This document shows positions 1,432 through 21,251 of a stretch of DNA of 25,507 bases, in pieces; the first letter of the stretch is position 1, and every line of letters begins with the position of its first letter. Below the pieces are notes generated by a model. That model was not told the origin of the DNA and ran no database searches. It worked only from the letters and a program-made list of their open reading frames with translations. The DNA is taken from positions 1 to 25,507 of IMG/VR virus record IMGVR_UViG_3300031706_000040; one strand, written 5' to 3'. The position numbers and the translations under genes were made by a program. Source of the DNA: a virus.

Positions 1432-3003
1432 ATGGCTATTAACAATTATGGTGGTTTTGCTGAAGGCTTCAAAGGTGGCTTTGGGTTAGTCAACGATGTG
1501 ATTGATCGGAAGAACAAGCAAACTAATATAGAGGACGCGGCTGAAACTCAGAAAACTCAGTTTGGCTTAACGCTAGATCAGAAAGCAGACGAGGCAGCGG
1601 CCACCGCCGCTTACCGGCAGGATGATTTAAAGATAAAAGGCGTAGCAGCTCGTCAGGCCGCAGGGCTTAATGCAACAAGGGCCAAAACTGCCGGAGTAAC
1701 AGCGAATACTGCTAGCATAAACGCGAAAACAGCACAGAAAAAGCAGGACGATCTAAGTGATCCAACCAGCCTTGCTTATCAGCTCAAAAAGCAGGAGATC
1801 GATAAAGGTAAAATAGATCAGAAAGAACTTGAGAGAACAATCGCGGTCGCGACTCGACAAGACGATAATTTGACTTCAGCGTTTCGCATATCTGAACTGT
1901 ACAAAGCGGTAAATGATAGTGGTGGCATATATAGCGATGCGCTCTATGACCAAGCAATGGACGCTATTGATCAAAACACAGGCACCAACTTTGCACTGGG
2001 TTACCTTAGCTCTGATGCGGCACAGCAAGATGTAGCAGTTTTGGACGAGTTTATTGCGGGTCTAGCCACTGGGGGTTCTGTAGAGGCAAGCCCCAATGTT
2101 CTGAAAGCATTCGATCAGACATTCAATATTAATCAGTCGGCTAACTTAGGTGCAACGATCAACGCTGACTTTACAAACGCGCCCCTTGCCATGCAAGCAG
2201 GTGGAAAGTTTGGTGATTATAAAATTATAGGTCAGGGATTGTATCAGCTAGATAACCAAACCCCCGCGCCAGTTAATGGTAAGCAACAGCCCTCTGCTAT
2301 AGGCGGCACGTTATACGTAATGACTCAAAATAACCAAGGCCAGATGATCCCTTACTTTCCTCCGCTAACGTCTGGACGGAGTAATAAAAATAACACACCT
2401 TTGGCCATTAATATGGATCATGCCTTGTCGGCTACAGCAGGCAAAGCCTACATGATTCAGCAAGTAGGGGCGAAGATCAAACCCCTAGTGAGGGATGCCT
2501 CGATAAAATCCAAATTTGGCGATAACGAAGGGGGTAACGGTGTCGCTGAATATAACGCGGAAGTTGACCGCCGTATGGATCAAGCCATTAAGGGTTTGCA
2601 GGGAGGCAGCACCAATATATATCTGGGTTCGGACACGGGATTGACTAACCAGCAGCAACTGGAGCCTAAGGAGCTGGACAAGATGCGGGCGAGAGTGCAG
2701 GAACACTTAATATATGGTCAGGTTAAGGAGCCACAGAAGCAACAAGTTATGGATTGGCTGGCGGCAGAGGAAAGCGCGTTAAAACAATTTCGAGTCAAGG
2801 GCTTGAAGAACCGAGGTGAAAAGACGCTAGGAGAAATTGTTCCACCGAATGCTTGGACTCCGCAGTTAATCTCAGCCCTTTCGACCCAGATAGGTGAAGG
2901 CAAAGCGGATACAGATGGAGCGGCTACTAGCGAACTAATTGATCGAGAGCAGTTCCTACAGCAAATGGGCGCTCTCAATCTGACATCCCAACTGGAGTTT
3001 TAA
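1432..3003 (+). CDS. Hypothetical internal/structural virion protein (523 aa)
   Basis: This 523-residue protein starts 9 bases after the previous stop and ends directly against the next start (TAAATG). After a Gly/Phe-rich head (NNYGGFAEGFKGGFG), residues about 25-150 are Ala/Gln/Lys/Asp-rich heptad-like helix, probably coiled coil. Residues about 150-400 look globular and include a Gly/Pro-rich stretch (GQGLYQLDNQTPAPVNG). The C-terminus is again helical and charged. No signal peptide or catalytic motif is visible. Its place directly before the giant polyvalent protein matches that of T7 gp15-type internal proteins, so an internal core or ejection protein is the best guess; no sequence similarity to gp15 is claimed. 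Confidence 0.82.
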   Translation: MAINNYGGFAEGFKGGFGLVNDVIDRKNKQTNIEDAAETQKTQFGLTLDQKADEAAATAAYRQDDLKIKGVAARQAAGLNATRAKTAGVTANTASINAKTAQKKQDDLSDPTSLAYQLKKQEIDKGKIDQKELERTIAVATRQDDNLTSAFRISELYKAVNDSGGIYSDALYDQAMDAIDQNTGTNFALGYLSSDAAQQDVAVLDEFIAGLATGGSVEASPNVLKAFDQTFNINQSANLGATINADFTNAPLAMQAGGKFGDYKIIGQGLYQLDNQTPAPVNGKQQPSAIGGTLYVMTQNNQGQMIPYFPPLTSGRSNKNNTPLAINMDHALSATAGKAYMIQQVGAKIKPLVRDASIKSKFGDNEGGNGVAEYNAEVDRRMDQAIKGLQGGSTNIYLGSDTGLTNQQQLEPKELDKMRARVQEHLIYGQVKEPQKQQVMDWLAAEESALKQFRVKGLKNRGEKTLGEIVPPNAWTPQLISALSTQIGEGKADTDGAATSELIDREQFLQQMGALNLTSQLEF

Positions 3004-6000
3004 ATGCCGATTAATTCTATCAAGCCTCAGGACGATGATGCCTATTGGGACAAGTTATACGCTGAAGAAGACACGCTGCCTAAGACATATAATCAGGCTG
3101 CTCCAGAGCCTGAATCAGGTAATTTTGTGCGCGGCTTAAACGCTAGTGTCAATCAAGCTCAGGCGCTAGGGGGAGGCCTAAAGGCGGCAGTTGGCTCTCT
3201 TGTTGGGCAAGATGACTGGGTCGCTTCTGGAATGCAGGACTATGTCCGAAATATGGAGGAGGCTGAAGGATATGCTGGCGATGTAATGAGCGTTACAGAC
3301 ATCGAGTCTGTTACAGATGCTTCAGCATGGATGGCTTACACGCTAGGCACATTAGTACCTGATGTAGTTAGCGCTGTAGCATTAGGCGGTGTGGGCGGGG
3401 TAGTTGCAAAATCGGTAGTAAAAAAAGGCGCACAAAAATTTGCCGAAGACAAAGTAGAGAATGCAGCACAAGAATTGTTGCAGGCTGGCGTAGAGAAAGA
3501 TGCTGCCGCATACGTAGCCGAGTTTATGGGTACAGCCATAGTCAAAGACCAAATTAATAAAGCCGGTGTTAAGACGGCTATAGCAACCTCTGCCACCTAT
3601 GGAGGATTACAGGGTACTGGTGCATCGTTTGCAAGAATACTTCAAGAGACGGGCGTTGAAGCGCCCCTGACTGCACTAGGTGTTGGTATCGTCACGGGTG
3701 GGCTAGAAGCACTTCCGTTTACCAAAGCATTTGATGCTATGTTTCCGTCGAGCATGAAAAAAGATTTCCAAGAATACATTGCTGCCGGAATAACTGAAAA
3801 AGGCACTTGGGCAACTCAAGCAATAAAAGATGCATACGCTATAGGACAAATTAGCTTTGCCACTGAAATAATACAGCATATTGTAGATGAAGAAGCTTTA
3901 GTTTGGGTTAATAACAACTTTTCGGAAAACGAGGCCATGGAGTATTCGGCTTTGCTTACCGATGAGCGCAAAAGAAACGAACTAATTAATGTTGGTGCTA
4001 CCAGCCTCCTAATGGGATCTACACTTGCCGCAGGCACTGTCGCTGGAAAAACACTCACAGGCCAGTATAACCAGCAAACTAATTTTGGCGATCAGGCCAA
4101 ACCTGTTCGCACTCAAACTGCAAATGATCCAGACCTTCGCCTCAAGGTAATTTCTGTTTTAGACCGCTACAAAGCGGCCTCTGAATCAGGACAAACACTC
4201 AATGGATCGCCTATTGATGTTCAGGACACTGGGGTTAGCAATGCTGATTTCTTGGCTGGGGAAACTCTGCCAGACAACACAGGGGTAGAGTCTACCAGCT
4301 TGGTTGACTATGACGGCACACAGATAGATATCCCGAACGATCAACCGCCTAATCTCTCTGTAGAGCAGGGTGGAATCACGGTTGATTCGCCCCCTGCGAT
4401 TGGAAGATCACCTGAAGATGACATAGTCGATGGCTTTCCACTCGCACCAGCTTTTGGAGCGACAGTCGTAGCTGATGGAACGAGAGACGCAGGGCCAGCA
4501 CATACTTGGGACGCTGAAATCTCCCCTTCAGATAAGCCCTTAGGCGACCAGTTGATCCAGTTATCGGCAGCAGCCTTGACTGTAGAAGCTCAAGATCCTA
4601 ATAACACCGATGTAGTCGTTGAGGCCATTGATCAAGATGATATTAACCGGCTGTTTGAGCGGAACAATACATTAAAAATTCGGCAGAACAAAGATGATAC
4701 CGAAGGCCTAGATCTTCCAACCGTTGACGAGGCTTACGGCGAGACCGCTCCGGCGGTGACTAATACCGTTGGAGGCATCATGTCCGACCTCTCAGCGGCA
4801 GGTGTTCCTACTAGCTTTATTGATGCAGTCACGGGCATCTATGTCCACCAAGAGTCTCAGATAGATGCGCCAGCCATTACAGGTACTGGATCTTTTGGCA
4901 TATCAATTAATGCGGATTTAATTGACGGGTCTATGACTGATCCCGCGCAACTAAGTGAGCTAGGCTGGAGTATGACCCATGAGGTTTATCACGCCGCTGA
5001 CTTTAGCATGGGGTTAAGTGACAAAGATCCTCAGTTTGGTATTACGGTTGATAATGATGCGGCTCAACCTTCTGTAGTGATGGGTGACATTATGCAGGAG
5101 CTTTACAATAACTGGGCTGGTGACACTGAGCTAGGCGCTCGTTTTGATTATCCGTTTAATGACTTAGCTGCCGATATAAACGATCTAGATAAAGAGAATG
5201 CTGGAATAAATAAACGCTACAGACAAGAAGCGTTTGCGCAGTTGGGCGCTCTATTTCACTCGAATCCAAAACAGCTACAAGAGCAGGCTCCCTTAGCGTA
5301 TACTTTTATAAAGAATATACGAGACGCAAACCTGCAAACGGCCCTAGCGCCAGAGGCAAATAATGCAAACAACAATAGTCAAACAGAAGCCAATTCCTCC
5401 GAACCTTCAGGCGTATCAGGACAAGTACGGCCATCGCCAGTCACCGGAAGCGTCGAGAGCGCACTCCCTGATGCAGTTAGACCAGATGGCGAAGAAGGCT
5501 CTGGAAGCGGGAGAGCCGATACCGCAGTGGAGGGATCGCAGCAAGACGCGCCTGAACAACGTCAACGATCAGCAGTACAAAAGCCTGACGTAGCTAATGA
5601 TACTCGCGGCCAAGGCAAGCAATATCATGGCACTTCTACTCCAATTAACAAGCTGTCTGAATACACCTACGGCTCACTCAACATCTACGGGCAAGGTCTT
5701 TACACTACCGATGCTATAGATGTTGCTGGGGGCTATAGCAACAAAGGCAAAGGTGCAGCTCCTTCCATCTACTCCGTTACCCCTATTAATGCTCCACGCC
5801 TGTACGATTTAGATTCCGAGATTACTCTCAAAGACCGTAACATCGTCGAAAAAATATTAGAAGATTCTTATCCTCTCGATGAGAGTGATGCGGGCGTTAA
5901 GCTGCACGAAAAGACGCTCGGCAAAATATTGGATCGCGTTCGGCAAGAGTCAGAGGAGAGCGCTGACAATATCCAAGCAGACTTCGACAGCATTGTAGGC

Positions 6001-9000
6001 TATCTTTCCAATAATGGTTATAGGGGTTACAAGCATATAGGAGGCAAATTTACTAACTCAACTCCGCATAATGTAGAAATATACTGGTTTGCTGATACAG
6101 ACATTAATCTTGAGAATACAGATCCTAAGCAGCTTACTCCTGAGCTTAAAACCGTTGCGGCTGAACCAATTACCCGTACTGAAGTTGTCCTCAAAGCTAC
6201 TGACAAAAAGCCTACTTTTAAGAAAGCTCTGAACTGGGAGGATACTGGCAATCACGTTGTCACTTTCCCAGACGGTGACCGCTATGTCTTGTATTTTGAT
6301 GACGATGCATCCCAAGATAGAAAGGCTGATGATGACGAGGTCTATTACACCTCAGAGGATGGAAAGTTACTTGGGGCTGATGCATTGCTTGGTGAGACCA
6401 AGGCAGAGACCATTGAATTACTAAACGACTACCGTAAAAAATTAATGACGGCGGGAGAAAATTCATACAATCTCCCCCTTGACCCAGATGTGGGTGCGGA
6501 AATCGAGGGTAATGCTTGGTCATTCATTGATGACAAGGGAGAAGTAACCGAGAAGCAGTTACGTACCAAGTTCAAGGCTCTTAATGACGATCAGTTTGAG
6601 AATCTTACAAACCGGCTATTAAATCAAGAGGCCGCAGAAGACACTATTATCCTAGAGGACGGTAAGTACCTCTCCGCTGACTATGTTCTGGAAAGAGACT
6701 ACGGTGGTATTGATGATATGAATTTCATCAAGAAGGGTTCTGAATATCTATTACAAAAGTCTAGCGGCCCTGTCGGTGAAAAGAAAACACTACCTGTAAT
6801 CAAGATCACGCCAACTACAAAAGATCCTTCTGGTGAGGTTAAGCGAATGACGGATATTGTGGCAAAGCATCCTGAAGCTTTGTCCTCTCCTGAAGCGTGG
6901 TTGGCGTTTGAGCGTGACCTGACAGGCACCAATGAGACCCTTGCCCCTCCATACGGTCTTATCCGACTATATAACGATATAGACTCATGGGTCTCTTTGC
7001 ATTCCAACCTGACACCCGAACAGCTTGGCGCGGCTGACCGAGGCCTTGCCACCACAAAAAGAATGAAAGAGCTGTATGCCTCTGGTCAAGCCACTCCGAA
7101 TGCCACAGCAAAGCTAATGTTGTGGGGCTTATTGTCCCGCAGACATACCGCCTCAGGCCAAGAGGCTGGGTTCGTAGACTTAATGACAGGCAGCACAGCG
7201 GTATCCGACTTGGCAGACAAGGCGCTAGCCGGAGATGTGTCGGATGCAGACGTAAAGGCTTGGGAAAAACAGGCAACCAAGTTAATTCCTGAAGGCTCCT
7301 TTGGCCGGACGGGTGTGTCCAACGCCAATGACTTTGGCAGATTGATGCAGAAACTAGCAGCGCCGTATGATGAAAATATTACTAAGTTACAAAAACTCCA
7401 CGACCTGATGGCTAGTGATCTCCCTACAAAAGAGGTTCGTCACGAATTTCATATGTTAGTGCAGGGGTCGGGAATTGATAACAAAGTATTTTCTTTTAAC
7501 ATGCTAATGATTGGTCGGGATGATGTCGTTATCCTTGATCGTATTCAGCTAAACTCAATGTGGGATTCTGAGCGCTACGGGAAAAAGATTTACGCAGACA
7601 TTGCTGACGAATTCAGTGGGTTACGTGGGCTAGCCCGATATGAGGCTATTGAAACTTCACTGCAAAACAAAGTTAAAGACTTTTACAAAAAGCTTGGTCG
7701 GCCAGAAGATGCATCGGTAGGTCGTTATCACTGGGAAAGCTGGGTGAGAGACTCAGGTCAGGTGGTCGCACACCCGACTATGCAGGGTCTAGAGAAAGAT
7801 ATTAAGGGAGAGTCAAGCCCTTACGCTTTTATTGGCGCTCCAGAAGGAAAGATGAATACATACGCCTACTCCGCAATATACGGGAGAGACAATGAAGGCA
7901 CCCCTTACTATGTTTACCCCGATTCTAAAGGCACCTTCCACAGATTTAATTTAGATAAGTGGGATGTGTTTAAAAAAGAGATCCAGAAGCCTCAAAATGG
8001 TATAGTGGATAAAAGCTTTAGAGTAAGCCATTTTGATAAAGGAACACCATGGTATGAATCAGATCAAGTCAACAGGCAAAAGCTCGACGAACTCGTCGAA
8101 TCTTACGCAGAAAGAGAGGCAGCTGAAAGAGAATATGCTTCTGAAAGAGCTGTTACAAGTAGTGCCACCGATGGCACCGGACTCGCCGACAGACGAAAGC
8201 AAGTCTACCGAAGCCTTCGTAGTGCCGCGACACCTGATAGCGGGAGTGGCAGAACTGAAGGAGGGATACCCAGACGCTTCCGACGAAGAACTGGCAAACA
8301 TTCTCAAGTACTCGTAGCAGGACAGAAAGTATCCGGCTCCAAGCGAGAGCTTGAGACATCAGCCAAGGCGGCACTACAGGAAGTAGAAAGCTTTAACGGC
8401 ACAGTCATTGAACTGGCCTCAAACAAAACCAACGCAAAACTATTCGCAAGCAAAATTCAGGCTGGAAAGGATGCAAGTCCTTTCGGTGCTGCTGTCTATA
8501 TGTACGCCGAATCCGACTATCAGAACATGAAAATGTTTATGACTGAGGATGGTTCAGCGGGTATAGCTGTCGCAGATGGCGATACTATTGTCTCTCTTTA
8601 TAATACCGGCACCCACAAGAACGTAACCTATTCCCTAGCTTCCCTCGCTGTTGAGGAGGGGGGGCTGTACTCTGATGCATTCGACACTCAACTGCCCTAT
8701 ATATATCAGCACGTTGGGTTCAGGGTTACCTCCCGCCTTAAATGGGATGACACTAAGGCTCCTGACAATTGGGACAAAGGTCAATTTAAAGTCTTTAACA
8801 AGGGCGAGCCTGACGTTGTGTTCATGGTCGTTGACCCTGATTACTTCGGCCCATACTCAAAAGATGTTGGCTACTATGTAGAGGACTATGATGAGGGCAT
8901 GCGCTCCATTCGTGAGACTCGCAGGCCTGAGCAAGAAAGAATATCTCCCAAGTTAAAGCAAGCGGTGCAGGATCGAATTGATCGAAACATTACTGCCGCC

Positions 9001-12000
9001 GAGCTTAATGACATCTTCAGAAAAGAAGGTCGTTATGTTAAGCCCATGCATCCCGATATGATTGCTCCGCTAAAGGCTGACTCTCATTACACCAATGCAC
9101 TTGCCATAACAAACAAAGAAGGTGTCGATAAAAAGACCGGCAAGCAGAAGCCAAGGAAAGAAACTTACTGGATGGCTGATGCGCTGGTAGACGGAGAGAG
9201 ATACGGGTCTCGACTAGACATTCCAGCCTACAAAGACCCAGATAAATATGAGCGGGCTGACATCGTTACAATGCACACGCCGAAGCGCAACGGTAATAAT
9301 GTATCTGCTGGCGCAAGGCTTGGGTACTATCCTACGGTTCAGCTTCGAGGCGTTTTGTTTTCGTCACCAGAAAAAGCCACCACTAAAATTGCTATTGGCG
9401 CAGAAAAAAATACTATCGCGACCATCGAAGGTAATTACGTTGCGGCAGACCATGAGCAGAACAGACTAGACTTTATAGCCGCCATGGATGATCCGGCTTG
9501 GACTCAGGTCTCAATGAATCCAGAGCGTCATTCTTTCTACTACGATCTAGCAACGCAAACTCCTGTAGTTTCGGCTAGTGAAGTAATTCAGGTAGGAAAC
9601 TTAGTAATAGCCAAAGATGTTGTCTATGACGATGTTGAGGAATTCTCATACATCAAAAAGAAGCAAACCAACAAAGAAACTAACACCCTTGATGATGGTT
9701 CACCATCTACCAGCCAGTTTACTTACAACGATGAGATTGACTTACAGACATACAACCTGCGCCGTTTCAAGGCCACCAAGACATACAAGTCTTTAGTCGA
9801 TAAGTATGCGCCCATGGAAGACTTTGAGCGGCAGGCGGCAGAATACCTAGAATATGGCCGTCTTCCCGCACCTATCTCTCCACGCGATCAAGAAAACCTA
9901 ATGCACGGTAAGGTGCAGGAAGATCTAAAAGCGTTCAATGAAAACTTCGTAGATCCTATTGGAGACATGATTGCTAAGACTGGAGTAGATGTTGAGGCCG
10001 TTGGCTTGTATCTGTTAGCCAAGCATGCCCCAGAAAGAAATGAGGCAATTGCAGAGCGAGTGAAGGCACAGCGCGAGAAGAATATCGCTACTACCGAGCG
10101 GGAGATTAATCGGCTCTTGGATGATGTTGGTATTGATCATACTGTTGCTCTCGCCACCCAAAAGAAAAAGCTTGAGGATTACAGAACGCTACCCTTACCG
10201 TTTGAGGGAACCGGTTCGGGCATGACAAGCGAGCAATCTCAGTCAATCCTAAGCTTTGCTGAAAGGGACGGCATGGCAGAAGACATGGAAGCCATTGCAG
10301 GAAAAGTCTACGAGATGATGGACTATCAAAGAAACCTCATGGTCGAGTACGGTCTTCTCGATGAGGCATCCATGGAAGACTGGTTGGTGAGGTACAAGTT
10401 TTACGTCCCCTTAAAAGGTTTCTACGATGCCTCTGATCCAGATAAGTTTAAGAAAGGAACAGGAACCAAAGGGTTCTCTATAGTCGGCAGCGAAAGCATG
10501 AAGGCAAAGGGTAGAAAGACACTGCCTGCCAACCCGTTGCTGAATGCTTTTGAGGATGTTCAGAAAAAAATAATTCGGGCGAGAAAAAATGAAGCATCCC
10601 AAACCTTACTAACACTGCTTAGTGATCTAGGTGATAGCCAGTCCTACAATATATACAATAACAAGTATCGCCCAATGATGGAAAGCGACCCATTGACCAT
10701 GCAAGACATGAAGCAAATGTCAAAAGATACAAGGGCCAATGGTGACCGAAAGTATATAGAGGTTAAGAGGGGTGGCCAGACATTCTTTATTGAGTTCAAG
10801 AGTGACACGCTAAATGCATCGCTGCAAAATATGGCTGTGGATGGATTAGATAAGGCCAATAAGACAGTCGAAGCCGTTTTTTCAGGCCTCACCCGATTCC
10901 AAACCTTTCGCCGCAACATGCTGATTAACTACAACCCGTCTTGGGGATTAGTTAACCCGATCCGAGATGTGCAGACTGCTCTGATGTTTGCCTTGTCTGA
11001 GAGTGACAAGCTAGGTGGTCGGCTTAACGGGAAAGGCGTGGTTAAAGAAATGACCAAAGAATACTTCCCGTCCATGCAGGCTTTGTACAGGTTTTACAGG
11101 GACAAACCAGCAAGGGAAGGCAACGAGTTGGATAGATATGCGGCTGAGTTCCATGAGGACGGCGCGGCTACAGGCCTGATCTTAATGAAGGATCAGGGAG
11201 AGCAGTTAAGGATAATTATAAATAAGCTCAACAAGAGTCCATCAAGGGAGGCTATCAAATCTGTCGGAAAATTTGTTGAAGACTTTAACACAACCATGGA
11301 GAACGCTGTTCGATTGTCGATCTATGTCGCATCTCGCAGATCTGGCGTTGATAGGGCTACGGCAGCGACCCTAGCCAAAGACGTAACGGTTAACTTTAAC
11401 CGTAAGGGTGAGTCTACCGCTACAATAAATGCGCTATATCTTTTCTTTAACGCAGCAGTTCAGGGTAACGTCAATATCGCTCAGGCTATGGCCGCTCAAG
11501 AGAGGGTAACCGAAAATCCAGATGGGACAAAAGAGTCTAAAAAGCAACGGTTCACAAAGGCAAGAGCCGCCGCCACGGGGTTAGTTGCAATGGGCTATGC
11601 ATTCTCACTCATTAACCAGTGGAATTCTGAAGAGGATGATGATGGGGAACTAAAATATCAAGACATCCCTGAGCATTCAAAGAACCGTGTTCAGCTCATT
11701 ATGCTTAACTCTACCGAGGGGGCGGCTATCCCTCTGTCCTATGGATATAACTTCTTTACCAACATAGGTCGTTTGGGCGCTGAAATGCAGTCTGGCGTGA
11801 CAAGTACCCCTGATGCGGCAATGGCCCTAGTTGATAACTTTTTTCTTAACTTTGTTCCCATTACCCACTCGAAAGGTGATTCAGTTGAGGAGAACCTTAG
11901 AGGCTACTATCCTGACATTTTAGAAGTTCATCTAGATCTAATGGCTAATAAAAACTTCTTTGGCAGCGACATATATCAGAAACAAAACCCGCTGTTCATT

Positions 12001-12624
12001 CCGAAGGCTAGGTCTCATACGGGCCGCAAATCAACGCCAGACGTTTACAAGAACGCTACCGAGTTTTTAAATGACGCTACAGGAGGAGATATGTATCGGG
12101 AGGGCAGCGTTATGGGTTTCAACACCTCATTTAACCCAGACAAGATCAAGTATATTTTTGACTATCTTGCGGGTGGTTTGGGGCGTGATGTAGTGAAGCT
12201 GGGTGATCTGGTTGGCAAGGTTGCTAGCGGCAATGCCGATGAAATCACCGCAAGGTCTATTCCTGTTGTTGGCACATTCGTAAAGGAAACTTCAGATTAC
12301 GAGGATAGATTTGAATGGTATGATAATTTCACGTTCATAAGGCAGGTCAACGCAAGATTCAAGACGGCTCAAGAGGATCTTGATACCGATGAGTTAACGC
12401 GATTACGTCAGGACTATAAGCATTACGGGCAAGTCATGGGAATGCATAAGCTGGTTGAGAAGCAAATGAGGGGATATGCTAAACAACGAAAGATAGAAGA
12501 GCGATTCAATACTAACGCCGATGATCGTACAATGAAAATACAGTCATTGCTCGATAAAGAGAACAAGCTGGTTGACCACTACAATAAGGCCTTCAGAAAA
12601 GCTACGGAGCTATCAAAGCAATAG
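3004..12624 (+). CDS. Giant phage polyvalent protein (3206 aa): metallopeptidase, ART-like, GNAT-like and LPD38-like modules
   Basis: This single open frame of 3206 residues follows GGAG and a direct TAAATG junction. Order of parts: residues about 1-355 are helical with three hydrophobic Gly/Ala segments (near 105-140, 220-245, 330-352) that may contact membrane. HEVYH at 659-663 is a HExxH zinc-peptidase motif, with E742 (RQEAFAQLGA) a candidate third ligand. A disordered linker (about 780-870) leads to an ADP-ribosyltransferase-like module: YHGTS 874-878, GQGLYTTD 896-903, candidate catalytic Glu 1025 in NVEIYWF. An unassigned helical region spans about 1290-1620. A GNAT-like region (about 1800-1940) ends in PDVVFM. 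A conserved strand motif (HSFYYDL, about 2176) follows. The C-terminal third, with NPSWGLVNPIRD (2644-2655) and FNRKGE (2798-2803), resembles LPD38. Such multi-enzyme proteins are known in phages and are thought to be injected with the DNA. Domain calls are by eye. Confidence 0.93.
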   Translation: MPINSIKPQDDDAYWDKLYAEEDTLPKTYNQAAPEPESGNFVRGLNASVNQAQALGGGLKAAVGSLVGQDDWVASGMQDYVRNMEEAEGYAGDVMSVTDIESVTDASAWMAYTLGTLVPDVVSAVALGGVGGVVAKSVVKKGAQKFAEDKVENAAQELLQAGVEKDAAAYVAEFMGTAIVKDQINKAGVKTAIATSATYGGLQGTGASFARILQETGVEAPLTALGVGIVTGGLEALPFTKAFDAMFPSSMKKDFQEYIAAGITEKGTWATQAIKDAYAIGQISFATEIIQHIVDEEALVWVNNNFSENEAMEYSALLTDERKRNELINVGATSLLMGSTLAAGTVAGKTLTGQYNQQTNFGDQAKPVRTQTANDPDLRLKVISVLDRYKAASESGQTLNGSPIDVQDTGVSNADFLAGETLPDNTGVESTSLVDYDGTQIDIPNDQPPNLSVEQGGITVDSPPAIGRSPEDDIVDGFPLAPAFGATVVADGTRDAGPAHTWDAEISPSDKPLGDQLIQLSAAALTVEAQDPNNTDVVVEAIDQDDINRLFERNNTLKIRQNKDDTEGLDLPTVDEAYGETAPAVTNTVGGIMSDLSAAGVPTSFIDAVTGIYVHQESQIDAPAITGTGSFGISINADLIDGSMTDPAQLSELGWSMTHEVYHAADFSMGLSDKDPQFGITVDNDAAQPSVVMGDIMQELYNNWAGDTELGARFDYPFNDLAADINDLDKENAGINKRYRQEAFAQLGALFHSNPKQLQEQAPLAYTFIKNIRDANLQTALAPEANNANNNSQTEANSSEPSGVSGQVRPSPVTGSVESALPDAVRPDGEEGSGSGRADTAVEGSQQDAPEQRQRSAVQKPDVANDTRGQGKQYHGTSTPINKLSEYTYGSLNIYGQGLYTTDAIDVAGGYSNKGKGAAPSIYSVTPINAPRLYDLDSEITLKDRNIVEKILEDSYPLDESDAGVKLHEKTLGKILDRVRQESEESADNIQADFDSIVGYLSNNGYRGYKHIGGKFTNSTPHNVEIYWFADTDINLENTDPKQLTPELKTVAAEPITRTEVVLKATDKKPTFKKALNWEDTGNHVVTFPDGDRYVLYFDDDASQDRKADDDEVYYTSEDGKLLGADALLGETKAETIELLNDYRKKLMTAGENSYNLPLDPDVGAEIEGNAWSFIDDKGEVTEKQLRTKFKALNDDQFENLTNRLLNQEAAEDTIILEDGKYLSADYVLERDYGGIDDMNFIKKGSEYLLQKSSGPVGEKKTLPVIKITPTTKDPSGEVKRMTDIVAKHPEALSSPEAWLAFERDLTGTNETLAPPYGLIRLYNDIDSWVSLHSNLTPEQLGAADRGLATTKRMKELYASGQATPNATAKLMLWGLLSRRHTASGQEAGFVDLMTGSTAVSDLADKALAGDVSDADVKAWEKQATKLIPEGSFGRTGVSNANDFGRLMQKLAAPYDENITKLQKLHDLMASDLPTKEVRHEFHMLVQGSGIDNKVFSFNMLMIGRDDVVILDRIQLNSMWDSERYGKKIYADIADEFSGLRGLARYEAIETSLQNKVKDFYKKLGRPEDASVGRYHWESWVRDSGQVVAHPTMQGLEKDIKGESSPYAFIGAPEGKMNTYAYSAIYGRDNEGTPYYVYPDSKGTFHRFNLDKWDVFKKEIQKPQNGIVDKSFRVSHFDKGTPWYESDQVNRQKLDELVESYAEREAAEREYASERAVTSSATDGTGLADRRKQVYRSLRSAATPDSGSGRTEGGIPRRFRRRTGKHSQVLVAGQKVSGSKRELETSAKAALQEVESFNGTVIELASNKTNAKLFASKIQAGKDASPFGAAVYMYAESDYQNMKMFMTEDGSAGIAVADGDTIVSLYNTGTHKNVTYSLASLAVEEGGLYSDAFDTQLPYIYQHVGFRVTSRLKWDDTKAPDNWDKGQFKVFNKGEPDVVFMVVDPDYFGPYSKDVGYYVEDYDEGMRSIRETRRPEQERISPKLKQAVQDRIDRNITAAELNDIFRKEGRYVKPMHPDMIAPLKADSHYTNALAITNKEGVDKKTGKQKPRKETYWMADALVDGERYGSRLDIPAYKDPDKYERADIVTMHTPKRNGNNVSAGARLGYYPTVQLRGVLFSSPEKATTKIAIGAEKNTIATIEGNYVAADHEQNRLDFIAAMDDPAWTQVSMNPERHSFYYDLATQTPVVSASEVIQVGNLVIAKDVVYDDVEEFSYIKKKQTNKETNTLDDGSPSTSQFTYNDEIDLQTYNLRRFKATKTYKSLVDKYAPMEDFERQAAEYLEYGRLPAPISPRDQENLMHGKVQEDLKAFNENFVDPIGDMIAKTGVDVEAVGLYLLAKHAPERNEAIAERVKAQREKNIATTEREINRLLDDVGIDHTVALATQKKKLEDYRTLPLPFEGTGSGMTSEQSQSILSFAERDGMAEDMEAIAGKVYEMMDYQRNLMVEYGLLDEASMEDWLVRYKFYVPLKGFYDASDPDKFKKGTGTKGFSIVGSESMKAKGRKTLPANPLLNAFEDVQKKIIRARKNEASQTLLTLLSDLGDSQSYNIYNNKYRPMMESDPLTMQDMKQMSKDTRANGDRKYIEVKRGGQTFFIEFKSDTLNASLQNMAVDGLDKANKTVEAVFSGLTRFQTFRRNMLINYNPSWGLVNPIRDVQTALMFALSESDKLGGRLNGKGVVKEMTKEYFPSMQALYRFYRDKPAREGNELDRYAAEFHEDGAATGLILMKDQGEQLRIIINKLNKSPSREAIKSVGKFVEDFNTTMENAVRLSIYVASRRSGVDRATAATLAKDVTVNFNRKGESTATINALYLFFNAAVQGNVNIAQAMAAQERVTENPDGTKESKKQRFTKARAAATGLVAMGYAFSLINQWNSEEDDDGELKYQDIPEHSKNRVQLIMLNSTEGAAIPLSYGYNFFTNIGRLGAEMQSGVTSTPDAAMALVDNFFLNFVPITHSKGDSVEENLRGYYPDILEVHLDLMANKNFFGSDIYQKQNPLFIPKARSHTGRKSTPDVYKNATEFLNDATGGDMYREGSVMGFNTSFNPDKIKYIFDYLAGGLGRDVVKLGDLVGKVASGNADEITARSIPVVGTFVKETSDYEDRFEWYDNFTFIRQVNARFKTAQEDLDTDELTRLRQDYKHYGQVMGMHKLVEKQMRGYAKQRKIEERFNTNADDRTMKIQSLLDKENKLVDHYNKAFRKATELSKQ
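5363..5593 (+). CDS. Candidate overprinted small gene inside the giant gene's first linker (76 aa)
   Basis: This ATG frame lies in the +1 frame relative to the giant gene, entirely inside the segment that encodes its disordered linker. AGAGG stands seven bases before the ATG, an acceptable ribosome binding site. The product (for example LMQLDQMAKKALEAGE and IPQWRDRSKTRL) has the balanced composition of a folded helical protein, and from about codon 12 onward third positions are mostly G or C. The giant-gene frame over the same bases is Ser/Gly/Pro/Gln-rich and looks less constrained. No family is recognised. It may equally be a chance frame created by a GC-rich linker. Confidence 0.3.
   Translation: MQTTIVKQKPIPPNLQAYQDKYGHRQSPEASRAHSLMQLDQMAKKALEAGEPIPQWRDRSKTRLNNVNDQQYKSLT
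8135..8317 (+). CDS. Candidate overprinted small gene inside the giant gene's second linker (60 aa)
   Basis: The frame is open from about 8033 in the same +1 relative frame as the nested candidate at 5363. The protein-like part begins at the ATG near 8135 (MLLKELLQVVPPMAPDSP) and ends with LKEGYPDASDEELANILKYS. The upstream part looks like a shadow. Over the same bases the giant protein reads as an Arg/Ser/Gly-rich linker (GRTEGGIPRRFRRRTGKHSQ). Only a weak purine-rich site (AAAGAGAAT) precedes the ATG. No family is recognised, and chance remains a real alternative. Confidence 0.25.
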   Translation: MLLKELLQVVPPMAPDSPTDESKSTEAFVVPRHLIAGVAELKEGYPDASDEELANILKYS

Positions 12625-13159: not shown

Positions 13160-14254
13160 CTATAACTGCGCATGCATCTCATCTAGTCTTCTCGACACCT
13201 TCTTCTTGTGAGCCTTGTTTTGGTGAGCGTAACGCGCAACCGAGGCTGGAGTTGACCACCCTCCCTGAACCATAATTTCTGACTCAGTGCTTCCATTTTG
13301 CACATGCCATGTCGCAAACGTATGCCTAAGCGAGTGAAAACGCACCCAAGGAGGTAATCCAGCCAGCCTTACGGCCTTTTTCCATGTCGGATTGGTCATA
13401 GAGCTTCTACAAAACGGGTTGCCCAGTGACTGATGGCGATGATTCCGCCCCAGCATCGTAGACCACTTCGACTCGCCGCCTTGAATAAAGACGTAATCCA
13501 GTGCTGGCCGAGCCGGATTAGTACCGTCTCGATACAGATGAGTTTTTAGGTCAGGGTATGTTTTTAGCAATTGTTCCCGCACCTTTAGCTGCATTTGTAG
13601 CACTTTCCTCGCCTGAGGATTTACCTGAATATTATGGGCTTCGCCGCCTTTCATATGTCTAGAAGGAATATTAATCTCCTTTTGATCAGGAGATATCCAT
13701 TCCCAGAGCATCATCCGAACATTAGAATTTCTTAATCCGGTGGCTAACGCCATTCTCATCATCGAGGCACGAAGAGGATCAAGCCAGCGGATTAACTTTG
13801 CCGCATCTTCCAATTCGAGCCATTCCTCACGCTTTACCTCTTCCTCCATCTCCTCAAACTCAGGGAAGTCATCAAACTTTACACTCAGCCTCTTGCGCGA
13901 AAAATTACATAGCGCCCTCAAAACCTTCGTGTAGTTATTGATGCCACAAGGCCCAAGACCCTTATCATTCCTCACCGATTCGGTCATATCAAACGCATCG
14001 AGAGAATTGATCGAGGACATTTGCCTGCCCTTAAAACGTCCAGACGTTTCATCCCAAACAATGCTTAACTCCGGTCGTTTACTGTGGTACTTCGGAGAAT
14101 AGGCATACACCTTTTTTGTCTTTTTATCTAACAGACCTTTCGGTTTATCATCGGCCATCCACATGACGCAGTGGCGCACCGTCTCCGACTTTGCGTTACC
14201 AAACTTCTTTGTAGGTGCGTTTAAGTATCGTTTTGCTGCTTCTTCAAAAGTCAT
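13160..14254 (-). CDS. int: Phage tyrosine integrase
   Basis: A site-specific recombinase expected to join attP to the host tRNA-Gly gene. Catalytic elements of the tyrosine recombinase family are visible: Arg in LATGLRNSNV, Lys in RHMKGG, His-x-x-Arg in FHSLRHTFA, the Gly-Gly-Trp of VQGGWST, and the nucleophile Tyr in VARYAHQ. The N-terminal part (MTFEEAAKRYL, then RKRLSVKFDDF) fits arm-binding and SAM-like core-binding domains. The length, about 364 residues, is normal. The start at 14254 is preferred because GGAGAAG lies 3-9 bases before it; a longer ATG at 14266 lacks a binding site. It is the last gene of the leftward operon and reads toward the attachment core. A 14-base sequence just upstream recurs inverted near the core. 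Confidence 0.95.
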   Translation of the reverse strand: MTFEEAAKRYLNAPTKKFGNAKSETVRHCVMWMADDKPKGLLDKKTKKVYAYSPKYHSKRPELSIVWDETSGRFKGRQMSSINSLDAFDMTESVRNDKGLGPCGINNYTKVLRALCNFSRKRLSVKFDDFPEFEEMEEEVKREEWLELEDAAKLIRWLDPLRASMMRMALATGLRNSNVRMMLWEWISPDQKEINIPSRHMKGGEAHNIQVNPQARKVLQMQLKVREQLLKTYPDLKTHLYRDGTNPARPALDYVFIQGGESKWSTMLGRNHRHQSLGNPFCRSSMTNPTWKKAVRLAGLPPWVRFHSLRHTFATWHVQNGSTESEIMVQGGWSTPASVARYAHQNKAHKKKVSRRLDEMHAQL

Positions 14255-14274
14255 AATCTTCTCCATTTAAGTGG

Positions 14275-15103: not shown

Positions 15104-15535
15104 CTAAAACGGGATATCGTCATCTGGCAAATCGGCAACAGGTGCCTGCCCAGTTGGCGCATTAGCCCTCTGTGGTGCAGAAGGTTTGGCACCGGAGTCA
15201 GTAAAAGCTTTTAGGTCGGGCATATTGTTGCCTAACCATGCGCCTTTAATATGCAGGCAGGGTGCGCCCGTTGATGTCTTTTCGGCATGCCCTTTCCAGT
15301 TCATGCGCATAGTTTCGGCACCGGACTGGTTCAGGCCTTCTTGGAGCCAGTCAATAAGGTTCTGGCCGATTTGTAAAAAACCATCATAGTCATGCGCTTT
15401 GTCATCGGTTGCCCATGCTTGCCCTTTTTCTCGCAAAGTAGCCAGACGCGCCAGCTCCATTTGCTTCTTTTCAGGGGCTAATTTATAGAGTCGGCCATTT
15501 CCAGCCTGTACTTCAAAAGTTTGTGTTTGTTGCAT
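15104..15535 (-). CDS. Protein with SSB-like acidic C-terminal tail (143 aa)
   Basis: The protein ends in PDDDIPF, the signature tip of bacterial single-stranded DNA-binding proteins that recruits exonucleases, primase and recombination partners. A Pro/Ala/Gln-rich linker (about residues 113-134) precedes it, as in SSB. The first 110 residues (DGFLQIGQNLIDWLQEGLNQ, MRMNWKGHAEK, CLHIKGAWLG) do not obviously read as the usual SSB OB-fold, so this may be a divergent phage SSB or another protein using the SSB tail to dock. Its ATG overlaps the exonuclease stop (TGATG), linking it to the exonuclease and annealing protein. The role as SSB is inferred from tail and context. Confidence 0.8.
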   Translation of the reverse strand: MQQTQTFEVQAGNGRLYKLAPEKKQMELARLATLREKGQAWATDDKAHDYDGFLQIGQNLIDWLQEGLNQSGAETMRMNWKGHAEKTSTGAPCLHIKGAWLGNNMPDLKAFTDSGAKPSAPQRANAPTGQAPVADLPDDDIPF

Positions 15536-16563
15536 CAGTGTTCTCCGTGCGTAATTGATATTTGTGTTGAGCCATTGGTACGCCTGAAATTCTCAAGCTG
15601 CTCGTCTTTTTCTAGCATTGCCTCTTCACCACCTAGAAATTCAAACGCTAGCTTGAAATCGATAGGAGGCGTTTTCTTGGTAATTTTTACGAGCGTCAGG
15701 CCGTTGCTCACGCTTGCTGAATACTTTGATCCGATAGTCTTTTTTAATGTATCTGACATTTCTGATAGCTCTTTTAAGCTTGCTAGCTCGTCACTGACAC
15801 GGCTTTTGATATCAGCTATTCGGGCATGTACCTTGCTCAACTGATTTAAATCTTCGTCTGTCTTAACCGTCTCGAAATCATTCTTAACGATAGGATCGGT
15901 GTACAGCATGCGTGTATCTTCATGCTCATACTGAGATTGAATATGTCGATACCAAGCGTGATAAAGATCCAGCCGAGAGATCGTTCCCTTGTCCGGCTGT
16001 GGCAAATATTTGCGCGATAACTGCTCCATTAAAAAGCCCTCATTACGCTCAATGCGCTCAAGGGTGTACTGAGGATCGGCAGTGGGGGAGTCGGCTAAGA
16101 AACAAATAAAATCGCAATAATCGACATCCAAACATTCCATTTGCATGTGGACTTGCATCAGATACATCGAGCGCTTGGGGCTGAAGATGGAGTAAGGTTC
16201 TTTGGTGTATTTTGGGTACGGGCATTTAATTTCAATACAGCCCTCTAAACCGATCAACCCGTCTGGCGAGGCCGCTAAAAAATCATACTTGGGGTGAATG
16301 ACAAGACCCGTTTCCTCAACCGTATAATCTTGGAGCTTTTCTAAAAAGATACGGGCATGGTCTTCCATCATCTGGCCATGAGCCACCGCCGGAACCATCG
16401 TGAATTCGCTCTCCGCGCCCGACAACGCCCTGACTTCTTGGCGAACCAAGTCAGAAGGCTTCATGTAAGGATGCTTGCCTTCGAGGGCAGCGCAAACCGA
16501 TGCTTTGATCAAACCGGCTCGCGCTAAATGCCACTCAGGTGATCCCTGAATAGCGAGGCTCAC
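15535..16563 (-). CDS. exo: YqaJ/lambda-type viral recombinase exonuclease
   Basis: A PD-(D/E)XK nuclease expected to resect one strand from double-stranded DNA ends and hand single strands to the annealing protein encoded just upstream. The N-terminus GSPEWHLARAGLIKAS is the family signature. AHGQMMEDHARI carries the helix-1 Glu. The active site is seen as ASPDGLIG followed by CIEIKCPYP (Asp, then Glu-x-Lys). YLMQVHMQMECL is the conserved Gln helix. The C-terminal third is a Lys/Glu-rich helical extension. The start chosen is the GTG at 16563, which overlaps the upstream stop (GTGA) and has GGAGG eight bases before it. An ATG at 16629 would add 22 residues overlapping the upstream gene and lacks support. 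Confidence 0.92.
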   Translation of the reverse strand: MSLAIQGSPEWHLARAGLIKASVCAALEGKHPYMKPSDLVRQEVRALSGAESEFTMVPAVAHGQMMEDHARIFLEKLQDYTVEETGLVIHPKYDFLAASPDGLIGLEGCIEIKCPYPKYTKEPYSIFSPKRSMYLMQVHMQMECLDVDYCDFICFLADSPTADPQYTLERIERNEGFLMEQLSRKYLPQPDKGTISRLDLYHAWYRHIQSQYEHEDTRMLYTDPIVKNDFETVKTDEDLNQLSKVHARIADIKSRVSDELASLKELSEMSDTLKKTIGSKYSASVSNGLTLVKITKKTPPIDFKLAFEFLGGEEAMLEKDEQLENFRRTNGSTQISITHGEH

Positions 16564-17183
16564 TTCTCGGCCCTCCAGCCTTTTGCTTGGCAGACCTCTT
16601 CCCAGCGCGTGGTGTTCTGGTCTTCCCATCCGCGATTTCGCAATCCATCCGTAAAGCGCTTAAAGATTTTTTGTCCCGCTGATTTATTTGTGGCTTCCAA
16701 TATTTTCGTTGTCAGCCACAGATCTTCTATCATCTGTGCTTCAGTGACTTCAGGCATCTCGGTGGGAACGGCAAAGACAGGATCAGGCTTTTTGAGCCAC
16801 ATCGTATAGCCTAGACCAAATTCTCCTAAGGCTTTTACTCTAGCCCTTTGCTTGGCTGTGTTTATGTCCATCGCTGTCGGAGCTTTGATAGCAATGCCAG
16901 ATCGATGAACGGGCAGGTAGGTGATCACAGTGTGAGTGCCGATGGTCATCCGACATCTGACTTCAGCACTACCATCGTCGAAGTAATGCACTTCTCGACC
17001 AGCTTGGTCTTCACTAAATTCCCACGAATATTCGGGAAAGACACCCATCATTAATTCGTGAGCCTGCATCCACGGGAGATATTTTAGGATTTGATCGCTT
17101 AGATGTTCTGTTTCGGTGCAGAGGGGGGCTACATCAATTTTTGAAAGGGTATTCCAGATATGTGCTTTCGTCAGCGCTTCCAT
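16560..17183 (-). CDS. DUF1071 (Sak-like) single-strand annealing protein
   Basis: The product is expected to bind and anneal single-stranded DNA, acting with the next gene's exonuclease as a Red-type recombination pair. Features of the DUF1071 family are visible: WNTLSKIDV near the N-terminus, YLPWMQAHELMMGVFPEYSW, an acidic segment followed by EVRCRMTIGTHTVITYLPV, and the family hallmark PTAMDINTAKQRARVKALGE then FGLGYTMWL. The C-terminal 70 residues are helical and Trp/Lys-rich. The length of 207 residues suits the family. It is the first gene after a candidate promoter on the same strand (17214-17242) and overlaps the exonuclease by four bases. Sak proteins are related to Rad52 by fold; this placement is from recalled family features. 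Confidence 0.9.
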   Translation of the reverse strand: MEALTKAHIWNTLSKIDVAPLCTETEHLSDQILKYLPWMQAHELMMGVFPEYSWEFSEDQAGREVHYFDDGSAEVRCRMTIGTHTVITYLPVHRSGIAIKAPTAMDINTAKQRARVKALGEFGLGYTMWLKKPDPVFAVPTEMPEVTEAQMIEDLWLTTKILEATNKSAGQKIFKRFTDGLRNRGWEDQNTTRWEEVCQAKGWRAEK

Positions 17184-18676: not shown

Positions 18677-19411
18677 ATGATTTTCAGACGCGCATCTTAC
18701 CCCCACGAAAGTTTTACAACAATCCCAAATTCGCTCCTGCGCGGCACAAATAAGGCTTCGGAGGCGCGAAGTGACGGCATTTCACCTGAAGCTCTGGGTG
18801 TTCTTGCCTACTTGCTTTCACATAAAGAAGATTGGCAAGTCACAAATCGACAGCTTCAGAAGGTATTTGGTGTCGGAGACAGCAAGATAACGCGCATCAC
18901 TAGGGAGCTTGTGACCGCTGGATACATTGCCCGACCAAATCAGCGGGCCGCAACAGCAAATTGGGATTGGGATGTCTTTGACAGCGTCTCACTAGATCGG
19001 GATTTTCCAGATCCCAGTATTCCAGATCCCAGTATTCCAGATCCCAGTATTTCAGATCCCAGTTTTCCAGATCAAATAAATACTATAAGTAAGAATAACA
19101 ATAGGAAAGAAAAACAATCATGGAAGAAAGAGCTATTCGCGGCTTCCCCAGAATATATTCGTCAAGCGGTTTGGCAGGAGTGGTGGGAACACAAGATCCT
19201 TAAAAACTCTGGCCGAAGACCAACGGCTTCGATGCTGACTAGACAGACCAAAGACTTTGAGCTGATCGCAGGCGCAGGGTTTGATGTTGGGGCAGTCGTA
19301 TCTTTCGCGATTAGCCGAGACTGGCAGAAAATTGGGGATGTCACTTGGGAGGTGTTAGGGCAGTTCAAGAATGACACTCGGCATGATGATCTTATGGGTG
19401 CAGTGAAGTGA
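18677..19411 (+). CDS. Winged-helix replication initiator (lambda O-like organisation)
   Basis: Probable origin-binding protein. Residues about 1-105 look like the winged-helix domain of phage initiators: SYPHESFTTIPNSLLR, then SPEALGVLAYLLSHKEDWQVTNR, VFGVGDSKITRITRELVTAGYI. Residues about 110-132 are a tandem PDPSI repeat encoded by 15-base DNA repeats (19005-19074). The next stretch is Asn/Lys-rich, and the C-terminal domain (about 150-244) is helical with Trp-rich segments (AVWQEWWEHKIL), probably for helicase recruitment. A DNA-binding N-terminus, repeats in mid-gene and an A-rich tract right after them are also the layout of lambda O and its origin; no sequence homology to O is claimed. 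AAGGAAGC gives the ribosome binding site. First gene of the rightward operon; it overlaps the primase (GTGA). Confidence 0.82.
   Translation: MIFRRASYPHESFTTIPNSLLRGTNKASEARSDGISPEALGVLAYLLSHKEDWQVTNRQLQKVFGVGDSKITRITRELVTAGYIARPNQRAATANWDWDVFDSVSLDRDFPDPSIPDPSIPDPSISDPSFPDQINTISKNNNRKEKQSWKKELFAASPEYIRQAVWQEWWEHKILKNSGRRPTASMLTRQTKDFELIAGAGFDVGAVVSFAISRDWQKIGDVTWEVLGQFKNDTRHDDLMGAVK
19005..19074 (+). repeat. ori: Iteron-like 15-bp tandem repeats, candidate replication origin
   Basis: Unit TTCCAGATCCCAGTA occurs at 19005, 19020 and 19035 exactly, at 19050 with two changes, and as a 10-base partial copy at 19065. An A-rich, roughly 80% A+T tract follows (about 19073-19118). Iterons beside an A/T-rich unwinding region within the initiator gene is the lambda-type origin layout. 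The repeats also encode a PDPSI protein repeat, so a purely coding origin is the alternative. Confidence 0.65.
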
Positions 19412-20304
19412 TCGACATTCGAGAGCTATCTCGACAGCTCGGTGATCACGCGAGCGGCATCTGCCAAGAGCTATTTCCTGATGGCAAAATTGAAAGCGGC
19501 TGTTACAAGGTTGGGTCGATCTCAGGCGAGAAGGGCCGATCAATGTCGGTCTACCTGCACGGCGAACAAGCAGGCAAATATATGGACTTTGCCACAGGAG
19601 AGGGCGGGGACATGCTCGATCTCATACAGCATGCGATGGGGCTAACGCTTGTCGAAGCGATGGATTGGTCAAAGAAGCGATTTAATGTACGCGATAACGT
19701 ACAGTCCAAAAAGTTTAGCGCGGTAGAAAAAAAGACCTTCCAACTTCCCAATCTGCCAGAGCAGAGTAGCTCGCAATTGCTGCACGGCTACATGGAAGGT
19801 CGTGGATTTAGAGACGTTGGCGAGATTTGCTTCAAGTGGAAGATCTATGAGACTACGTCACACCGTGGTTCAGATGTGGTGTTTCCGTACTACGATGCCT
19901 CCGGTGAGCTAGTGTTTTTAAAAACGAAGCCGATCAACCATGACGGCAATCCGGCAACTCAGAAAGACCTGAAGCCTATTTTGTATGGGTGGCATTGCAT
20001 GCCCGACAACGCGAGAGAGGTCTGGCTCGTCGAAGGCGAATGGGATGCGATTGCATGCAGTGAGCTGGGATACCCCGCTCTGAGCGTTCCATTTGGTGGG
20101 GGCAAGGGAGCAAAGCAGACCAAGTGGATTGAGAACGAATACGATAATCTCAGTCGCTTTGAGCGCATCTTGATAGCTACCGACATGGACGAGCAGGGTG
20201 AGCTTGCCGCCGCAGAAATAATGACTCGGCTAGGCGAGCGATGCGTCCGCATCAATCTTCCGAACAAAGACATTAATGATATTTTGAAGGGGGCATTGGT
20301 ATGA
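19408..20304 (+). CDS. Toprim-domain DNA primase
   Basis: Expected to lay down RNA primers for phage DNA synthesis together with the helicase encoded next. The N-terminal half (SMSVYLHGEQAGKYMDFATGE, GGDMLDLIQHAMG) matches the region before toprim in phage primases of the T7/DnaG-like group, but the four-Cys or CHC2 zinc ribbon is not evident (only Cys near 19 and 32). The toprim core is clear: VWLVEGEWDAIACSELG (catalytic Glu motif) and RILIATDMDEQGELAA (Asp-x-Asp). About 298 residues is short, typical of a phage primase separate from its helicase. The GTG start overlaps the initiator stop and the TGA overlaps the helicase ATG. Confidence 0.88.
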   Translation: MIDIRELSRQLGDHASGICQELFPDGKIESGCYKVGSISGEKGRSMSVYLHGEQAGKYMDFATGEGGDMLDLIQHAMGLTLVEAMDWSKKRFNVRDNVQSKKFSAVEKKTFQLPNLPEQSSSQLLHGYMEGRGFRDVGEICFKWKIYETTSHRGSDVVFPYYDASGELVFLKTKPINHDGNPATQKDLKPILYGWHCMPDNAREVWLVEGEWDAIACSELGYPALSVPFGGGKGAKQTKWIENEYDNLSRFERILIATDMDEQGELAAAEIMTRLGERCVRINLPNKDINDILKGALV

Positions 20305-21251
20305 GTCCTCATTATGAAAAAGCCCGTGCCATTCTCTCAATGTGCTATGAGGAAGCTGTCTGGAAAGATCCGACAACACTCCGAAGCGTTATGGAATTTG
20401 AAGAAGACCTAGACCAGTTTTTCAGCATGGAAGAGGACACTGCTGGGTTCGGTTCTGGATGGGCCAAGCTCGACGAAGAAGATATTCGCTTCCGTCCTTC
20501 AGAGCTTTACCTCATGGGCGGCATTAACGGCCACGGCAAGTCGCTGTTGCTCGGACAGTTGGCGCTAAACGCAGTAGAGCAGGGCCAAAAAGTTCTGATC
20601 GCAAGTATGGAGATGCCTGCTCGCGCAACCTTAGGGCGAATGATGCGTCAAGCGGGGGGCGTGGTCTCACCGCCAAAACTCTATCGCAAAGCCTTGCTCA
20701 ATTGGCTGGCCCCAAATCTTTGGCTGTTCGTGGACAAGCTAACGCCGAAGCCCAAAGATCTCATGGATTGCTTCGAGTACGCATACCGCAGGTACGGTAT
20801 CAATATGTTCGTCATTGATTCTCTCACGAATATGGTTCGGCAGGATGATTACGAGGGTCAGCAAAAGTTTATTGAGATGCTCGTCAATTTCAAAATGTCA
20901 TTTCCCGTCACGATTTTTCTCGTCACTCACGTGAGAAAAGGTGAGAGCGAGTACACCGCGCCGAATAAGTATGACATCAAGGGTTCTGGCTCAGTTACAG
21001 ATCTCGCAGATGGCGTAATTATGATTTTCAAGAATAAGAAAAAGATTGAAGCTGTGGCTCAAGCAAAGATGTTGTGCGAAGAGCTTGACGAAAAATATGC
21101 ACGGCAGTGGGACAGTTACCTTGAGGTTTTAAAGAATCGTAACGGACAGTATGAAGGAAAGATCGGGTTTGAATTTGATGTGGATTCTATGCAATTTAAA
21201 GAGAGACGCGGCTCGAAACCCAAACAATATATCAATTACTCAAAGGATTAA
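20301..21251 (+). CDS. DnaB/T7 gp4-type replicative helicase
   Basis: A RecA-fold hexameric helicase that would unwind the fork and couple to the primase. Walker A is GGINGHGKS (Lys80, Ser81). The ASMEMP segment (about residues 98-103) carries the conserved Glu. Walker B is FVIDSL (Asp173). VTHVRKGE followed by DIKGSGSVTDLADGVIMI is the conserved C-terminal helicase region with its switch and Ser/Gly motif. It lacks the DnaB N-terminal helical domain and has only a 50-residue leader, so it looks like a stand-alone version of the gp4 helicase half with the primase in the preceding gene. ATG overlaps the primase stop and is preceded by AAGGGGG. Confidence 0.92.
   Translation: MSPHYEKARAILSMCYEEAVWKDPTTLRSVMEFEEDLDQFFSMEEDTAGFGSGWAKLDEEDIRFRPSELYLMGGINGHGKSLLLGQLALNAVEQGQKVLIASMEMPARATLGRMMRQAGGVVSPPKLYRKALLNWLAPNLWLFVDKLTPKPKDLMDCFEYAYRRYGINMFVIDSLTNMVRQDDYEGQQKFIEMLVNFKMSFPVTIFLVTHVRKGESEYTAPNKYDIKGSGSVTDLADGVIMIFKNKKKIEAVAQAKMLCEELDEKYARQWDSYLEVLKNRNGQYEGKIGFEFDVDSMQFKERRGSKPKQYINYSKD

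Follow-up and report, generated by a model that had tools for sequence, protein, structure and literature searches.

A giant phage polyvalent protein with a constant peptidase and LPD38 chassis around a slot of interchangeable modules

Polyvalent proteins and the giant gene of the window

Polyvalent proteins are multi-domain phage proteins, predicted to be injected, in which metallopeptidase (MPTase), ART, GNAT and LPD domains are combined (Iyer et al. 2017, PMC5512222). The ARTs published for this class are of the H-Y-D type, GNATs adjoining ARTs have already been reported and an Asp three residues past the HExxH motif marks the phage-type variant of the MPTase (PMC5512222). What these peptidases cut is left open in that paper, the argument of which favours autoprocessing for such domains, as does the precedent of P1 DdrB. 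Another giant phage protein, gp69 of Burkholderia phage JC1, was detected by mass spectrometry (51 unique peptides) in CsCl-purified virions (PMC9144972, Table 6).

In this study, a stretch of 25,507 bases, constituting an entire IMG/VR record (hereafter the window), was analysed. It carries an ORF of 3206 codons (3004-12624, plus strand), which begins with ATG and is free of internal stops. The giant protein encoded by a second contig (IMGVR 3300031848_000856) differs by 1 aa, and the two contigs show 5 mismatches in 15,993 aligned bases. MPTase, GNAT, LPD38 and ART-like domains, i.e. at least two unrelated domains of the polyvalent repertoire, all lie within this single ORF; judged by its sequence, the giant protein is therefore a phage polyvalent protein, a known class, as the first-pass annotation had claimed. 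The same annotation also suggested that it would be an unusual takeover tool, and this view was not upheld, since MPTase, ART, GNAT and LPD together are a documented theme of PMC5512222 and the combination is not new. Newly resolved here is its organisation into chassis and cargo; the active site of its ART is doubtful, and one of the cargo domains is probably new. The features are as follows (coordinates in the window, all on the plus strand):

1432..3003 (+): upstream neighbour of 523 aa; an ORF of ~500 aa holds the same place in relatives
3004..12624 (+): ORF of the giant polyvalent protein (3206 aa), carried almost unchanged by a second contig
3004..4443 (+): N-terminal chassis region, aa 1-480, with a hydrophobic stretch near 116-140; in all orthologues reaching it (37-51% identity)
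4711..5373 (+): predicted zincin-like metallopeptidase domain, aa ~570-790; invariant HExxHxxD and ExFAQxGA, AF2 model, Foldseek
4978..5001 (+): HEVYHAAD motif (H659, E660, H663, D666); HExxHxxD kept in orthologues whether close or distant
5227..5229 (+): Glu742, predicted third zinc ligand, in E-x-FAQ-x-GA; invariant in all orthologues tested
5410..5439 (+): motif GVSGQVRPSP, aa 803-812, in the disordered linker; conserved, and a candidate site of processing or docking
5599..6144 (+): ART-like cassette, aa 866-1047, with H875 and Y900 conserved and E1025 not; sub-threshold PF18760 match, Foldseek
6151..6753 (+): alpha/beta module, aa ~1050-1250; in 15 of the 18 other orthologues
6991..7803 (+): predicted HhH-GPD/Ogg DNA-glycosylase-like domain, aa ~1330-1600; hhalign, Foldseek, invariant K1494 and D1512
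8296..8898 (+): GNAT-like acetyltransferase module, aa ~1765-1965; phrog_2563, fold order of the model
8926..9633 (+): module, aa ~1975-2210; weak likeness to phrog_586 / mycobacteriophage L5 gp82, below cut-off
9631..12603 (+): C-terminal chassis region, aa 2210-3200; phrog_14770 (4e-140), phrog_616 (1e-110)
11653..12270 (+): LPD38 domain, aa 2884-3089; PF18857 (E 1.6e-25)

Sequence searches of Pfam, NCBIfam and the PDB with the whole protein returned little besides LPD38, and a DNA-level search of phage records matched nothing. When PDB chains were searched with sequence profiles of the peptidase, the ART, the GNAT and the 1330-1600 block, no credible match was obtained, and in Foldseek searches of the PDB no module match reached E 0.001. 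Among genomes, the sole match was a contig of a MAG (Flavobacteriales ANT-36) that may be mis-binned, and a host assignment was dropped.

Terminase and portal genes were not seen within the window. The upstream 523-aa neighbour gave no match in profile searches and shows no homology to JC1 gp68. Beyond the giant gene and oriented against it lies a tyrosine-recombinase integrase (13160-14266, minus strand; PF00589, E 4e-22), which suggests a temperate phage. It is followed by a phage recombination pair, i.e. a RecE/YqaJ-type exonuclease adjoining a Sak-type single-strand annealing protein (15535-17183, minus strand), and by a replication module (18677-21251, plus strand) composed of a DnaD/O-like initiator, a 298-aa ORF and a DnaB-type helicase.

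The constant chassis and its variable slot

Scans of viral contigs yielded about 20 orthologues, and the comparison table covers 18 besides the window protein. Their alignment revealed two constant parts, aa 1-863 (the N-terminus and the metallopeptidase) and aa 2210-3200 (the C-terminus with LPD38), whereas between aa 863 and 2210 whole modules (ART-like, HhH/Ogg-like, GNAT and two others) are gained or lost. The MPTase is present in all 18 other orthologues and the C-terminus in each of the 16 that extend to it; the HhH/Ogg-like module occurs in 10, the GNAT module in 8 and the ART-like module in none of the 18. By this comparison of sequences, the protein has a chassis, the fixed N-terminal peptidase region and C-terminal LPD38 region of which flank a slot where modules are exchanged. 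In one orthologue (L016, 11096-13738) the same slot holds a different cargo matching DUF7178 (E 1e-10), so still further modules are accommodated there. This makes a design testable, in which delivery and processing parts stay constant and phages exchange effectors in the slot.

In the peptidase region, H659, E660, H663, D666 and E742 are retained without change down to relatives of 27-31% identity. The annotation had proposed HEVYH (659-663) with a downstream Glu as metal ligand and had named conservation of HExxH in homologues as a check on it; both hold, and since E742 is invariant in every close and distant orthologue tested, the HExxH is not a chance occurrence. D666, likewise invariant in orthologues, is the Asp of the phage-type variant. 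A His ending strand 2 (YVH/FVH) is kept in close orthologues and is shifted or missing in distant ones. The blocks of the AF2 model mostly reach a pLDDT of 85-96. When a model comprising the MPTase and the ART was compared with the PDB in Foldseek, zincins predominated, every one at E > 0.001; PPEP-1, an MtfA-type hydrolase and zincins of the lethal-factor type were the neighbours of the peptidase. The prediction of a zincin-like metallopeptidase at aa ~570-790 is supported by the conservation of these residues, with a zincin fold suggested by the weak structural matches.

The peptidase is followed by a linker of ~75 aa (aa ~790-865), predicted to be disordered (pLDDT 20-31). Within it, every one of the 20 close family members compared (the window counted, some being near-duplicates) has G[ILV][SR]G[QE][VI]R[AP][PS]P, and distant L136 has a related form. 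Conservation of a motif in a disordered stretch between peptidase and cargo suggests self-processing and not cleavage of host proteins, and GVSGQVRPSP is likely to be the candidate site at which this would occur; it could also be a docking site. If the motif is a cut site, it would help to identify the substrates of the peptidases in polyvalent proteins.

At the other end of the chassis, the LPD38 domain anticipated by the annotation scores 90.7 bits (cut-off 27). With the C-terminal 910 aa as query, 129 phage records were matched, among them Vibrio phage 252E42.2 (E 1e-106, 99% of the query covered). JC1 gp69 is a C-terminal homologue as well (E 2e-31, over ~830 aa only, 22% identity), and because it was found in virions, we infer that the window protein is probably carried in the particle and injected into the bacterium. 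The virion finding for gp69 is the strongest experimental evidence for carriage of the chassis, indirect as it is for this phage. In one relative (L004), the upstream genes match internal virion and tail or tail-fibre proteins.

Modules of the slot

The GNAT assignment of aa ~1765-1965, which agrees with the first-pass annotation, is well supported by sequence matches and by the predicted fold. The region matches phrog_2563 (E 2e-8) and belongs to a family with at least 265 viral relatives, and almost all of those inspected in full lie inside large multi-domain proteins. In the model, the segment W1801-1912 is arranged as beta1-alpha1-alpha2-beta2-4-alpha3-beta5-alpha4-beta6, i.e. in the GNAT order, and weak structural matches are NatB (8bip) and a phage N-acetyltransferase in BFVD. 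Relatives include proteins of Limnohabitans phage DC33, Microbacterium phage Barnstormer (gp4) and Haloarcula tailed virus 2 (HATV-2, gp117). Their acetyl-CoA loop, (Q/R)xxGx(G/A), is KGIG-like in HATV-2 gp117, RGIA in Barnstormer gp4 and degenerate in the window protein. In Barnstormer, the GNAT of this family is fused to a VG15-type minor capsid protein encoded between the portal and scaffold genes. In HATV-2 (gp117-gp118; L039:2986-4092), a solo GNAT of the family adjoins a gene for an Ogg-HhH-like glycosylase, an adjacency that suggestively parallels the pairing of GNAT and HhH-like modules in the window protein.

The ART-like cassette has the motifs YHGTS, GQGLYTTD and NVEIYWF (874-1028), and its best Pfam match is ART-PolyVal (PF18760, E 0.0029 on the segment). 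The ART-like layout described in the annotation stands as far as these motifs and this match go; the profile score is sub-threshold (18.8 bits against a cut-off of 31.2). Foldseek matches of the segment are RES and diphtheria-type ARTs (weak, E 0.2-0.8), the model having a pLDDT of 40-85 there. The best Foldseek match of the combined MPTase and ART model was 9k3a chain B (E 2e-3, the aligned stretch not being reported). This chain was ruled out as a zincin: it is gp27, which bears an ART-like motif and lacks HExxH, and gp28 is the M23/transglycosylase protein. The stretch 864-1045 is cleanly missing from all 18 other orthologues, even from those 64-66% identical downstream, and its relatives reside in giant proteins otherwise unrelated to the window protein; in two of these giants, the part towards the C-terminus matches a virion structural family. 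ART ancestry of aa 866-1047 is likely.

Catalytic activity of the cassette is uncertain. Of the ART residues whose conservation the annotation had set as a check, H875 and Y900 are invariant over seven sequences (the window and six relatives) and Glu1025 is not. Glu1025 had been proposed as catalytic and could not be maintained in that role: the position is Lys in all six relatives, which makes ART activity doubtful, and it is His1022 that is invariant in that strand. The H-Y-D active site of the published polyvalent ARTs was not found in the window ART either, the strand-5 position being E in the window and K in the six relatives. These observations would fit a cassette that is catalytically dead or of another chemistry and retained for binding, a reading we regard as tentative, at somewhat less than an even chance. 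Against it stand the invariant H875 and Y900 and the acidic residue of the window copy at position 1025. Some active ARTs lack the Glu.

The block at ~1330-1600, which the annotation had left unassigned as a possible further domain, proved to be a real one, among the most conserved parts of the protein wherever it is present. Pfam gave no match to it. Comparison with an hhalign profile of Ogg-HhH proteins gathered from genomes gave P 1.1e-4 (score 35.9, probability 56%); none of 60 column shuffles scored above 21.0, three unrelated profiles scored about 14-15, and comparing Ogg with nth, a genuine pair, yielded 2.2e-5. K1494 and D1512 align with the catalytic Lys (hairpin) and Asp pair of Ogg and are invariant in 16 sequences, down to 28% identity. 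On these grounds, we lean towards a predicted HhH-GPD/Ogg-like domain. The less probable but still substantial alternative is a helical domain of structural or adaptor type that has no relationship to DNA glycosylases: it would fit the silence of Pfam, the absence of a significant match to the endonuclease III (nth) profile and the weakness of the best PDB match in Foldseek (endonuclease III, 8a5c; prob 0.66, E 0.47), and is opposed by the margin over the shuffles and by the aligned, invariant Lys/Asp pair. If real, the Ogg/HhH-like module would extend the predicted injected repertoire by an activity on DNA bases, with K1494/D1512 as the residue pair to test.

Proposed action and comparison with known systems

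The reading we prefer, with a probability of roughly 0.7, is that of a virion-carried polyvalent protein with chassis and cargo, in which the peptidase frees the modules at the linker. The chassis would bring the protein into the particle and from there, together with the DNA, into the host cell. The metallopeptidase would cut the conserved disordered linker (aa ~790-865), and within the first minutes the freed modules would work on targets of the host or the phage. Proteins or nucleic acid may be the targets of the GNAT, DNA bases those of the HhH-like domain and a host protein that of the ART-like domain, if active. A stronger version, in which the fixed peptidase and the linker motif free interchangeable effectors that include a new injected family of DNA-glycosylase-like proteins beside the GNAT, both acting together on DNA bases, either in an attack on the DNA of the host or to shield or edit the phage DNA as it enters, appears improbable; the HATV-2 gene pair is cited for such joint action.

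The annotation had proposed that the metallopeptidase is itself an effector cleaving host proteins. Host targets are conceivable, as the fold neighbours include host-directed zincins and PMC5512222 leaves the matter open; we nevertheless consider this unlikely, although less so than the joint action on DNA bases, given that the peptidase is a constant part of the chassis whereas the recognisable effector modules vary, that the conserved linker motif lies directly downstream and that the P1 DdrB precedent and the argument of PMC5512222 favour processing. Least probable of all is a purely structural ejection protein (a pore or conduit) with enzyme-like modules that are idle in the host. It would account for the hydrophobic stretch of the N-terminal region, where hydropathy is maximal in windows beginning at 116-121, and the top Foldseek match is a cyanophage A4 pre-ejectosome protein, which likewise has an ART-like motif; against it, the invariant active-site residues of the peptidase and HhH domains and the turnover of slot modules fit selection for activities.

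Among known systems, gp27 of Anabaena phage A-4L (PDB 9k3a chain B, from the cyanophage A4 pre-ejectosome) resembles the window ART in bearing SLYHGT...GSGTYF, and it differs from the window protein in lacking HExxH and from the window ART family in having no profile-level sequence match to it. DC33 gp45 is likewise giant (3125 aa) and carries the same GNAT family, together with a significant ART-PolyVal match (E 8e-22) and LPD22; in a direct search no homology to the window protein was detected beyond the GNAT, which in DC33 is preceded by another helical module. This pre-GNAT module (aa 871-1345, L037), which a further 33 proteins of the set contain, showed no HhH similarity when tested for it. 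DC33 is filed under Inoviridae in GenBank, at odds with its 39-kb genome and giant polyvalent protein.

JC1 gp69, a Bcep22-like 'DarB-like' giant virion protein (PMC9144972) encoded by the final gene of the virion module, shares with the window protein the homologous C-terminal ~830 aa with LPD38 and contains an HExxH. In contrast, it is 4515 aa long, its cargo is LT-like, methylase/helicase-type and others, and outside the C-terminal ~830 aa no similarity is detectable. The polyvalent proteins of PMC5512222 are likewise very large and have the zincin MPTase (HExxHxxD phage-type variant), ART, GNAT and LPD38; their late-gene context is possibly shared by the window protein. The window protein differs from them in its ART without the H-Y-D signature, in its predicted HhH/Ogg-like domain (the word 'glycosylase' is absent from the text of that paper) and in the fixed chassis and variable slot, which were resolved through the comparison of orthologues.
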